Source: Sinorhizobium saheli
Lineage (GTDB): Bacteria; Pseudomonadota; Alphaproteobacteria; Rhizobiales; Rhizobiaceae
NCBI RefSeq assembly: GCF_001651875.1
Contig: NZ_LNQB01000073.1
Coordinates: forward strand, 558,001-622,000
Direction: 5' to 3'
Length of the DNA stretch: 64,000 bases
Under the pieces are notes generated by a model. That model worked only from the letters and a program-made list of their open reading frames with translations. It made no database searches and was not told the origin of the DNA. Both the position numbers and the translations under genes were made by a program. Positions 47,662-50,922 of this stretch are shown piece after piece; the stretch's first letter is position 1, and every line of letters starts with the position of its first letter.

Positions 47662-47872
47662 AGCCCCATCGAACGCCGACAATTTTGTGACAAATTGCTT
47701 AAGAAAACATCGTGCCTATTGGGAGTAGCCCGACGGCGCAACGCCGTCCCTCCAACGCGCATCGTGGGGCGGCGCCTGGACGATAGGAGGCTTCAAGGCT
47801 TTCCGGACAGCGAAAAACGGCGCCATGCATTCAGCCGCATGGCGCCGCGGATGGACGTGCCGCTCGCAATGT

Positions 47873-48187
47873 TTATCTGAGGATGCCGCCGGACTTCGAG
47901 CCGCTTTGCGACTGCCCGCCGCCCGGACCGCCATGCGACACGCCGCCGCCATGGAAGCTCCCGGGATTGGTCCCGTCCGGTCCGTTGCCGTATCCGTTAT
48001 TGCCCTTGATGTGGCCACCACCACCGCCGCCGCCTGACTTGGCGATCGCCTTCGAGTTGAGGCTCGTAGAAAGCAGCATCGTGACGGCCGGCGGCGTCAC
48101 CACCGCAAAGCGTCCGCAGCTTTTCAGGAATTCGCGTCGGTCTTCCTCGCTGCGCGACGGCAGTTCGCTCTGGCTTTCGGGTTTCAT
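47873..48187 (-). CDS. Glycine-rich small protein with twin-arginine-like leader
   Basis: 104 residues, start ATG at 48185-48187 behind GGGGAGGCGTT. Residues 16-49 form a Tat-like leader (DRREFLKSCGRFAVVTPPAV, then a hydrophobic stretch). Residues 51-104 are about half glycine, with seven consecutive glycines, then HIKGNNGYGNGPDGTNPGS and Gly/Ser/His repeats. There is no known fold. It lies downstream, on the same strand, of a PqqD/HprK-like kinase and a nucleotidyltransferase, and could be their substrate or a cell-surface product. That link is inference. Confidence 0.75.
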   Translation of the reverse strand: MKPESQSELPSRSEEDRREFLKSCGRFAVVTPPAVTMLLSTSLNSKAIAKSGGGGGGGHIKGNNGYGNGPDGTNPGSFHGGGVSHGGPGGGQSQSGSKSGGILR

Positions 48188-48488
48188 AACGCCTCCCCTT
48201 CGCGTCGGTAATCGTGGTGAACGATACAGTAATCGTCGACCGCTTGACAGTGATGCTGCTTGATTACTTCTCTTGATATCAGTACAACTATAATTCTTTG
48301 GGATTAATCATAAATACTTAATCCGCCCAATTTCCGCAATATTACAGTTGTTTAGCGCAAAAGGCAAAAATACAGGCGCTAATTTTATTTGATCGGCATT
48401 AGAGCGGGATGCGCTCACATGCGTTCGCGCCACCACGTATCTGTTTGTTTTTGCCGCATTTGTGCGACGTCAGATGAACTGCAAAATG
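48188..48488. other. AT-rich upstream region of the glycine-rich gene
   Basis: 301 bp. The part at 48240-48400 is markedly AT-rich (cagtacaactataattcttt), suggesting a separate promoter for the glycine-rich gene. Family A repeat copy 3 (48401-48494) fills the rest and reaches into the stop codon of the upstream gene. Confidence 0.55.
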
Positions 48489-48494
48489 CTAGAG
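48401..48494 (-). repeat. Dispersed intergenic repeat family A, copy 3
   Basis: agagcgggatgcgctcacat, gcgttcgcgccaccacgtat, ... ttgccgcatttgtgcgacgt, cagatgaactgcaaaatgct: reverse complement of the copies at 34513 and 46054. Its end includes the TAG stop codon (48489-48491) of the nucleotidyltransferase gene. Confidence 0.65.
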
Positions 48495-49577
48495 CTTCCC
48501 CAACGGCTTCGGGCGGAAAATGCGCCATAACTCACGCAGTTTGCGCTTTGCTTCGAGCCGCCGCGAGGGATAGGGCTCGCCGCCGAAGCGATCCCAGGAG
48601 GCGTAATGGGCGATCTCGGTCAGAAGCGTGAAGAGCGTGAAAGGGACGGCGAGGCTGTCCCTTCCGATCTGCAGTCGTCGGCGTGCCAATTGGAGACGCG
48701 GCAGCCTGCCAAAGGATAGGTCGGATATCCGGTCGATGCCGAACAGCGCCTGCGCCGTCAGGATCTGCGTGTCGGCGGCATTTCTTTCGTAGCCCGGCGC
48801 GAAGAGCGATCTCAAGGCCTGCCAGTCGATGTCGCCGGCCCGGGCGAGCTTCGCCATGTCGAGGAGGTGACGCAGGTCGATCAGGCCGCGCCAATAGTCG
48901 CCGTCCTGGAACTGGTCGTGCAGGATCAGGAAGACGATCTGGGCGAAGGGCGAGGGTACGTGGACATATCCTCCGTCGAGCGCGATCCGCCGGCTGTTGC
49001 CGTAAAGCCATTCGATGTCGCTGAAGGAGGCCGGGCCTCTCGGGCGGCATTGCAGATCGATGCTGCCGGCATCCGTCGGGCGCTCCAATACGGTCGGCAG
49101 ATGGAACCTGGGGTTTCCCGGCCATGAGCCGCGGCCGGCGGTCAGCCGGACCTCATAACCGATGCCCTGAAGCGCCCCGATCGAAGCCTCCACGTCGGCC
49201 GGGCGGACGAGAATGTCGAGGTCGGTCAGGATCCGCGCCCCGACGTCGTCCCGCGGCTCGCCAAGCAAAATCGCAGCGCCCTTCATGACGAGCGGCTCGA
49301 TGCCGATGCGATTGAGGCAGGTCACCGCCTCCGTCGCCTGCGCCATCAGCCTTCTATTGCGCTCCGCATTCCTTTCGTGGATCACGGAAAGGTACTGACG
49401 CACATCGTCCGGCAGGTCGTTCGCGCCCGCGGATTTCCCCATCGCCACGGCGAGCGACGGAACCGTCAGGCTTTCATTCGCCAGGGCTATGACGTTGTCC
49501 CAGTCGACTCCGGCCGGAGGGCGGCCATCGAGACAGGCGGCAAGCGCAAGGAGGTTTGCGTAGCTATGGCGCTTCAT
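48489..49577 (-). CDS. Nucleotidyltransferase-family protein, HPr-rel-A type cluster
   Basis: 362 residues. The minimal nucleotidyltransferase core is visible: VMKGAAILLGEPRD (Lys99-Gly100) and the metal motif ILTDLDILVRPADVEAS (Asp119, Asp121). The rest is helical (LIDLRHLLDMAKLARAGDID). This is the NTP_transf_5-like type. The start overlaps the kinase stop by 14 bp, so the two are co-translated. The family recurs beside HprK-like kinases and PqqD-like proteins in systems of unknown function. Substrate unknown. Confidence 0.85.
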   Translation of the reverse strand: MKRHSYANLLALAACLDGRPPAGVDWDNVIALANESLTVPSLAVAMGKSAGANDLPDDVRQYLSVIHERNAERNRRLMAQATEAVTCLNRIGIEPLVMKGAAILLGEPRDDVGARILTDLDILVRPADVEASIGALQGIGYEVRLTAGRGSWPGNPRFHLPTVLERPTDAGSIDLQCRPRGPASFSDIEWLYGNSRRIALDGGYVHVPSPFAQIVFLILHDQFQDGDYWRGLIDLRHLLDMAKLARAGDIDWQALRSLFAPGYERNAADTQILTAQALFGIDRISDLSFGRLPRLQLARRRLQIGRDSLAVPFTLFTLLTEIAHYASWDRFGGEPYPSRRLEAKRKLRELWRIFRPKPLGKL

Positions 49578-50667
49578 GATGCCTGCTCAGCGTCTCCACG
49601 GCCTCGTCGAGCCGGGAATAGGACAACTCGACGGCGCGGGCGCCGCGGATGGCGCCGAGCAGGGTCTCGAACTGCGCCAGGCCGAGGCGCTGCGCCGGCG
49701 TGAAGGCGCCGGCGAAGAGTTCGGAAAGGACCCGCGCCGGCTCCGCCTCGCAAATGGCGACGGGGCCCGTCCTTCGGCGGCGAAGAAGCACGATCGTGCC
49801 GAGCGGCACCGCTTCGCCCGGCGCATAGGGGATCGACGCGATGTAGCGGACGCGCTTGCCGTCGAGGCGGCGATGGATCGGAGCGGCCCCGATCGTCTCG
49901 CGCATGCCGTCGACGAGATCCCACGAGCCGCGCTTGAGTGCCGGAGCGAAGGGCACGCCTTGCACCCGTCCGTCCGCACCGAGGAGCGCGATGTCATCGC
50001 CGCCGCAGGCAAAGCCCGCTTCGAGCAGCGCCAGCGTCAGCGTCGTCTTGCCCGCGCCAGGCGCGCCGCAGATCAGCAGGCCCTTCGCGTTCCGCACGAG
50101 AAGGGCCGCATGGAGCGCAATCTTCGCGCCGAGGCTTGCGAGCATGTCCTCCGTCAGCAGCGCCTTCAGCGCCGGCACCGCCTCGTCGGCCGCGACGATC
50201 ATGCCGCGGGAGCGGTTGCGGCTGATGCAGGCACGGTCGTCGAACCTCGCCAGCTGATAGGAAATCGAGGCTTCGAGCCCCGGCGACGCCTGATGCTCGA
50301 AAACCGGCAGGGAGAGATCGAGGAGGCGTCGGTCGTGATAGGCTATCGAGACCGCCGTTCCCGACAAATCGAGCACCTGGATGTGCAGCGGCTCTCCCTC
50401 CTCCTCGTCGAGCACGATGTCCACGAGACCCCGGCTCGACCAGGAAAGGAGATATTTCCGCACGACCGCCCGTGCCCGGGACCGGCCGGTGCCACGCGCC
50501 ACGAGGTCCGCCTCCAGTTGCCGGGCCGACGCCGGCTCGACAAGCACGCAGGTGAGATAGGCGGTGAGGTCGTCGACCTCAAATATCTGCTGCGACGATT
50601 CGACGAAAATCGTCTTGCGCTGCCCAAGCAGGAAAAATCGTGCCCCCTCCGAGACGCGGAACTTCAT
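49564..50667 (-). CDS. PqqD-like domain fused to HprK-related kinase
   Basis: 367 residues. Residues 1-85 (FVESSQQIFEVDDLTAYLTC, then EPASARQLEADLVARGTG) look like a PqqD-type peptide-binding winged-helix domain. Residues about 95-340 resemble HPr kinase, with P-loop CGAPGAGKTT (Gly201-Thr208) and CGGDDIALLG (Asp224-Asp225). It matches the HprK-related kinase A type seen with NTP_transf_5 proteins and short peptides. It is first in a two-gene unit, divergent in function from the true HPr kinase of rhizobia. Substrate unknown. Confidence 0.85.
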   Translation of the reverse strand: MKFRVSEGARFFLLGQRKTIFVESSQQIFEVDDLTAYLTCVLVEPASARQLEADLVARGTGRSRARAVVRKYLLSWSSRGLVDIVLDEEEGEPLHIQVLDLSGTAVSIAYHDRRLLDLSLPVFEHQASPGLEASISYQLARFDDRACISRNRSRGMIVAADEAVPALKALLTEDMLASLGAKIALHAALLVRNAKGLLICGAPGAGKTTLTLALLEAGFACGGDDIALLGADGRVQGVPFAPALKRGSWDLVDGMRETIGAAPIHRRLDGKRVRYIASIPYAPGEAVPLGTIVLLRRRRTGPVAICEAEPARVLSELFAGAFTPAQRLGLAQFETLLGAIRGARAVELSYSRLDEAVETLSRHHEAP

Positions 50668-50846
50668 CCCAAATCCCCTCGCCGCTCAACCCAAGCGAGC
50701 GGTTCCCGGACATGCCGGCATGCCTACCTATTTGTGATCGAAATTTCGGCTTCCCGCCAGCCCCGGTGCGGTCTAAACGGCAGGGAACTCAAGGGGATAA
50801 TGCGAAAGATATGTGGTTTGCGGGGGGGCTTAAGCAACTTTGAGTA

Positions 50847-50922
50847 TGGTGCCCGGAGGCGGATTCGAACCACCGACACGCGGATTTTCAATCCGCTGCT
50901 CTACCAACTGAGCTATCCGGGC
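50847..50922 (-). tRNA. tRNA-Phe (GAA)
   Basis: Full cloverleaf on the minus strand: acceptor GCCCGGA/TCCGGGC, D-loop AGCTCAGTTGGTAGAGC, anticodon loop with GAA flanked by TT and AA, T-arm GTTCGAATC, encoded CCA. 76 nt. Confidence 0.97.

Follow-up and report, generated by a model that had tools for sequence, protein, structure and literature searches.

A compact rhizobial trio of an RRE-kinase fusion, a nucleotidyltransferase and a small twin-arginine-leader protein as a probable peptide-modification cassette

Within a 64,000-nucleotide stretch of the Sinorhizobium saheli genome (NCBI RefSeq assembly GCF_001651875.1, contig NZ_LNQB01000073.1, positions 558,001 to 622,000; hereafter the window, with coordinates counted from its first nucleotide), three minus-strand genes, transcribed in the order kinase, nucleotidyltransferase, peptide, probably form a minimal cassette for peptide modification, akin to those of ribosomally synthesized and post-translationally modified peptides (RiPPs), with Ser51 of the encoded peptide as the predicted phosphorylated residue. 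The joint occurrence of the three genes is not due to chance: among 33 genomes of the window genus, all three are present in the same 21 and none in the other 12 (Fisher test, 2.8e-9). A first-pass annotation of the window, made from its letters alone, had proposed that the kinase and the nucleotidyltransferase may modify the glycine-rich product of the third gene, and had named a survey of gene neighborhoods among the ways to check this; that reading is now supported by the co-occurrence, the predicted folds and a conserved serine in the peptide. The three ORFs (open reading frames) lie where it placed them, including the 14-bp overlap of the first two genes (49564-49577):

49564..50667, minus strand: fusion kinase of 367 aa, with an RRE domain (residues 1-87), an alpha/beta domain (about 95-178) and an HprK-like domain (180-365)
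48489..49577, minus strand: nucleotidyltransferase of the NTP_transf_5 family (PF14907), 362 aa, with invariant K99, G100, R115 and D119xD121
47873..48187, minus strand: precursor peptide of 104 aa, with a leader (1-49) and a predicted core (50-104)

The linkage of the three genes was surveyed with a pattern derived from an alignment of 14 peptide homologues (A1), which retrieved 203 peptide stretches from genome contigs; the best 80 of these 203 define 79 loci with 91 peptide ORFs. Both enzyme genes are found nearby in 39 of these loci (cis loci), neither in 40 (orphan loci), and exactly one in none. The 47 peptides of the cis loci lie at most 893 bp from the enzyme pair (median 82 bp), and 11 of the 40 orphan loci are stretches under 16 kb ended by a contig end. 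When the 27 genomes accounting for 28 of the orphan loci were searched for the kinase, 26 were found to encode it at full length (E <= 3.8e-109), and the 27th, Mesorhizobium WSM3862, has just a 58-residue N-terminal kinase stretch, probably at a contig end; the remaining 12 orphan loci, going by their records, come from organisms covered by this search, except that one of them (L154) belongs to a record with a complete cassette (L120). Likewise, unlinked peptides in the window genus are confined to genomes with the kinase, and a hisD tree covering 30 genus genomes (no locus was retrieved for three of the 33) requires at least 5 changes of the joint state, against a shuffled mean of 9.2. S. meliloti carries the full gene set, the window genome encodes, besides the trio, another cassette with a pair of peptides (L032) and an unlinked peptide (L171), and one cassette without an adjoining peptide (L040) belongs to a genome, G035, that encodes three peptides elsewhere. 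The order sample, from which the peptide model had been built, was for that reason set aside as evidence. In a class sample of 385 genomes (thresholds E <= 0.001 for the peptide and E <= 1e-20 for the kinase, both samples being taken as the same genomes), the peptide was found in 11 and the kinase in 16, with both in 8 (p=1.8e-10, or 5.7e-8 minus two model-building genomes). Among 15 regions around class-sample peptide matches, four (L159, L162, L164, L167) contain both enzymes.

The structure model of the kinase (pLDDT 93) matches leader-bound lasso RREs, with their winged-helix fold, over residues 1-87, and the HprK/P fold over residues 180-367; profile comparison and the model together place the RRE domain in the lasso B1 type, and among kinases of solved structure, profiles put HprK/P nearest. 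The fusion of a PqqD-like with an HprK-like domain, as first annotated, stays below threshold in searches with the single sequence (no PqqD match at E <= 1; Pfam Hpr_kinase_C at a sub-threshold E of 0.003; TIGR04352 HprK_rel_A at 68.3 bits, below the curated cut-off of 200), and is borne out by the model and by a 40-member kinase family, in which PqqD (PF05402) is matched by 29, Hpr_kinase_C by 34, TIGR04352 by all 40 and TIGR04353 by five members (E <= 0.01). Going by the model, the N-terminus is an RRE (PqqD-like) domain and the C-terminal part an HprK-type kinase. Its P-loop, correctly located at residues 201-208, reads GAPGAGKT, and the protein keeps H186, the P-loop K207, D224 and D225, the His-Lys-Asp-Asp set of the lasso kinases (motif roles after a review, PMC9266682). 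The nucleotidyltransferase is a clear member of PF14907 (E 2.8e-29; 102.9 bits against a gathering threshold of 31.2) and has the DxD motif first annotated, with K99, G100, R115, D119 and D121 invariant in 30 homologues; a sequence search found no relative of it in the PDB.

The peptide combines a strongly conserved leader with a variable core. In the window protein the leader contains RR17-18, GRFA, TPPA and A47-x-A49, and Ser51 stands at +2 after the predicted cut; the 14 aligned homologues share R17, R18, F20, L21, G25, F27, A28, T31, P32, P33, L39, A47, A49 and S51, and the conserved leader reads RRxFL..GRFAxxTPPA. RRxFL is present in 90 of the 91 peptide ORFs, the exception being a remnant without a leader, and the same 90 have a serine two residues past an [AP]x[ATM] site (88 of 90 with a first, stricter pattern), serine making up 8.5% of the remaining core. 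By reading, the core after the AxA-like site mostly begins Lys/Arg/His/Gln-Ser-Gly, and it then diverges into segments such as NGYGNGPDG, GWGDKNHIHxGPPG, His runs, WLERFLDWLF or GGSRSGDPN; the window protein has a tail rich in Gly, Asn, His and Ser. Among ten window-peptide homologues, the median ratio of nonsynonymous to synonymous substitution (dN/dS) is 0.17 for the core and 0.03 for the leader, which is under purifying selection. We regard the peptide ORF as a real gene because of these low ratios, a Shine-Dalgarno-like GGGGAGG ahead of its ATG and a downstream stem with a T tail. At the level of families, the peptide has no NCBIfam match at E <= 1, and in Pfam only a keratin-tail match below the cut-off. 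Several variants were observed: in Ensifer sp. Root278 (L148 7893-8303) the leader is duplicated in tandem ahead of a single core; two Bradyrhizobium peptides (L126 7893-8369 and L131 8007-8384) have the conserved leader with a long core that is not glycine-rich; and two diverged precursors (L048 7902-8216 and L050 10036-10281) have a common C-terminal RNGHSGC in otherwise differing cores.

We propose the following pathway. The RRE domain of the fusion kinase, judging from its fold, is likely to bind the conserved leader of the 104-residue precursor, and the HprK-like domain would then likely phosphorylate Ser51, perhaps repeatedly, by analogy to LppK and PadeK/ThcoK and in keeping with the conservation of this residue. 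The PF14907 enzyme might act on the phosphate by adding a nucleotidyl or sugar group, as PsmN suggests, this being the least secure of the steps. The modified, uncyclised precursor could plausibly be exported via its twin-arginine leader and cut after A49 by a housekeeping signal peptidase, which would release a core of some 55 residues, rich in Gly, whose second residue would be the modified Ser. Several precursors, linked and unlinked alike, would share a single enzyme pair.

The closest described counterpart is the pathway of the Linear Polyphosphorylated Peptides (LPPs; Popov et al., Nat Commun 2026, PMC13381572), which are called restricted to Bacillota and whose role is given as unknown. 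Their gene set comprises a precursor, a discrete RRE (LppB), an HprK-like kinase (LppK) that adds several phosphates to core Ser3, a nucleoside triphosphate (NTP) transferase (LppN), a SipW-like peptidase (LppS) and an exporter (LppD). In common with the window system, these clusters bring together an RRE (here fused), an HprK-like kinase, an NTP transferase and one to several linear precursors with a conserved N-terminal and a variable C-terminal part, a Ser no more than three residues past the leader cut (Ser3 in LPPs, +2 past the predicted cut here) and a cut of the signal-peptidase type (predicted here), and they too show a patchy distribution, often in polysaccharide loci. In contrast to LPPs, the RRE of the window system is built into the kinase as residues 1-87; no SipW-like peptidase or MsbA-like exporter is found among the ten flanking window proteins (by Pfam) or the annotated S. 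meliloti and E. canadensis neighbors, the other lineages not having been searched; the leader is twin-arginine-like with GRFAxxTPPA, against the YxxPxVLxHQxIxFETxxS of LPPs; and the system is alphaproteobacterial, with many precursors unlinked to the enzymes. Because of the fused RRE, the lack of LppS and LppD beside the cassette and the different leader motif, we do not file it as an LPP member; by analogy, it seems likely that it works like the LPP pathway, as a Gram-negative relative rather than an LPP by definition.

Several observations weigh against this proposal. No Tat (twin-arginine translocation) signal hidden Markov model matches the peptide at E <= 1; of the Tat-like leader first annotated, the RRxFL motif stands and a profile match is missing. 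The RRE-binding motif of lasso peptides and LPPs, [Y/W]xxPx[LVIAFY], occurs in 0 of 91 window-type peptides, and contact between RRE and leader is therefore not established. The position of the Ser is kept less strictly in the most distant matches: by reading, Ser was not seen at +2 in the G326 and G539 peptides, the weakest of the 15-region set. At the thresholds used, three of the 11 class-sample genomes with the peptide (G361, G369, G539) lack the kinase and eight of the 16 with the kinase lack the peptide, a small RR-leader ORF being recognized by reading in four of these eight (L220, at a contig end; L223, L224, L227) and not in the other four; ten of the 15 regions have neither enzyme, and in one (L165), which has no nucleotidyltransferase, only part of the kinase is present, truncated by the contig start. 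The kinase gene has an internal stop in G901 and G923, where peptides stay, and the nucleotidyltransferase gene is split in L109 (5321-6395) and G929 (C70:279391-280462), where kinase and peptides are kept and the enzyme may be dispensable. Since the LPP study could detect no effect of LppN in B. subtilis, the role proposed for the second enzyme is drawn from PsmN only.

The setting of the cassette in other lineages points to a possible role at the cell-surface polysaccharide. Mesorhizobium-type cis loci have Wzy_C ligase (14 loci), flippase (13), bacterial sugar transferase (11) and sulfotransferase (8) families nearby, Bradyrhizobium-type cis loci have dTDP-rhamnose gene families nearby in 6 to 8, and a cassette on a Parasedimentitalea plasmid (L037) has polysaccharide neighbors too; the ligase, flippase, sugar transferase, sulfotransferase, rmlA-like and rmlC-like families were each named by Pfam from one member, and rmlB and rmlD by reading. 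These neighbors would also suit a scheme in which the peptide is a carrier and the enzymes build a phospho-sugar on its Ser for exopolysaccharide attachment, the product being a surface-layer glycopeptide. Further in favor of this scheme, a review reports for the pseudomycoidin pathway that PsmK phosphorylates a Ser and that hexose addition to the phospho-Ser requires PsmN (PMC9266682), and the loci of LPPs and of paeninodin are often situated in capsule regions (PMC13381572). We nonetheless consider it unlikely: no polysaccharide genes were seen beside the window-type Sinorhizobium cassette (ten flanking proteins; annotated S. meliloti neighbors), and no orphan locus belongs to any of the polysaccharide families just named, apart from one (L137) in the rmlB-like family. 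Apart from the three cassette genes themselves, no family in a list of 45 neighbor families was seen to be shared across the lineages; the most widespread of the others, a mixed ABC-ATPase family, occurs near 6 of the 39 cis loci and near 2 of the 40 orphan loci. Near the second cassette of the window genome (L032 11758-15828) there is a 1356-aa cadherin/metallophosphatase/RTX protein, whose family is present in 17 cis loci.

A regulatory system, in which the substrate of the kinase is HPr, the nucleotidyltransferase or some other protein and its phosphorylation controls surface polysaccharide, with the peptide as a co-regulated secreted sensor or matrix protein, would fit HprK/P as the closest solved kinase and fold match and the NCBIfam naming of the wider family after HPr; it appears rather improbable, since an RRE-type domain suggests a binder of peptide leaders, the unlinked peptides of the genus occur only in kinase-bearing genomes, and a Ser conserved at a constant position fits the peptide being a substrate. 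That the peptide is an ordinary Tat-exported small protein adjoining unrelated enzymes agrees with its twin-arginine leader, AxA site and low-complexity tail, and is made very improbable by the linked and unlinked co-occurrence and by invariant residues past the twin-arginine motif (G25, F27-A28, T31-P33, S51). Scarcely credible, finally, is a phosphorylated lasso peptide with its cyclase encoded elsewhere. The review (PMC9266682) describes phosphorylated lasso systems (PadeK, ThcoK, SyanK, PsmK, PsmN) with the same His-Lys-Asp-Asp HprK-like kinase, nucleotidyltransferase and PqqD-type RRE, here of the B1 type; unlike in these, there is no macrolactam cyclase or B2 peptidase among the ten flanking proteins (by Pfam, an absence already claimed by the first-pass annotation for lasso cyclase and protease and upheld to this extent) or the annotated S. 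meliloti neighbors, no fourth gene among the 45 families listed is common to the lineages, the cores by reading have no common Asp/Glu at ring distance, and the conserved Ser is at the core start, the lasso phosphoacceptor being a C-terminal Ser.

The surroundings of the trio in the window include:

48188..48488, minus strand: 301-bp gap between nucleotidyltransferase and peptide genes, AT-rich by eye
47817..47848, minus strand: terminator-like stem of 13 pairs with a T tail, just 3' of the peptide gene
50847..50922, minus strand: tRNA-Phe(GAA), upstream of the kinase, at whose 3' end homology with cassette-less relatives breaks

A sigma-70 consensus scan recognized no promoter in the gap, and the peptide gene may have its own promoter; terminator-like stems with a T tail number 3 in the stretch against 3.2 expected in shuffles. 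By Pfam, the ten flanking proteins are of housekeeping types or unknown: YacG, Maf, IF-1, a low-molecular-weight phosphatase, UPF0262, histidinol dehydrogenase, a sugar isomerase-like protein, Transgly_assoc, a tRNA-editing domain protein and one without a match. Of the 12 genus genomes without the cassette, ten were compared with the window at this site, and in these homology with it stops at, or no more than 7 bp from, position 50846, the tRNA-Phe 3' end. Three of them (G899, G910, G918) have an empty site with the far flank resuming within 212-292 bp, in G903 it resumes after 3.7 kb, and in the other six it is unaligned, or present as small out-of-order pieces, in the stretch taken. In S. 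meliloti the interval from tRNA to kinase contains the tRNA end a second time, as a degenerate copy (47 bp, 89%; L033 6400-6950) that might have been left by an integrating element. In E. canadensis the trio is on plasmid pT173c, and in several genus members it lies far from hisD.

The peptide-modification cassette also resembles the HPr-rel-A system (TIGR04352 kinase A, TIGR04353 PqqD family chaperone), which we know from NCBIfam names alone, a literature search having found no paper under these names: members of the kinase family match both models, and two relatives (L224, L227) encode a kinase, a PF14907-like protein and small RR-leader peptides. It differs in that the window kinase falls below the model's cut-off and its RRE is fused rather than discrete; a discrete RRE is found in L224 (PqqD by Pfam) and L227 (by reading). 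In these two and a further distant relative (L267), a small peptide contains [YW]xxPx[LV], a sequence hint of a continuum with LPPs. Two other loci encode groups of peptides (L051 7918-9152 and L052 10459-11099), 59-92 aa long, whose leaders contain F-x-x-P-x-V and which have AQAQ(V/A)ANGSG close to the C-terminus; beside them are an HprK-like kinase, a PF14907-like gene and ORFs that by reading are glycosyltransferase-like. HPr-rel-A kinases were found in 91 of 299 phylum genomes (E <= 1e-15), with a PF14907-like ORF nearby in 18 of the 20 loci taken. We tentatively raise the possibility that these kinases run peptide-modification pathways on small twin-arginine-leader peptides. In that case the products, linear and exported, phosphorylated on Ser, possibly glycosylated and linked to surface polysaccharide, would make up a large class in Gram-negative bacteria, of which the rhizobial fusion, with many precursors in trans, would be the most compact form; recognition of a small RR-leader peptide beside 3 of 20 distant and 10 of 20 nearer kinases (partly by eye) speaks against so wide a reading.

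For an enzyme pair for which we found no described function, the trio offers a substrate that can be tested and, within it, the residue that is the probable acceptor. If the proposed modification is correct, phosphorylated linear peptides, described as restricted to Bacillota, would extend to symbiotic Gram-negative bacteria; and since S. meliloti, a model legume symbiont, has the gene set, both this reading and the link to polysaccharide are open to genetics and mass spectrometry.

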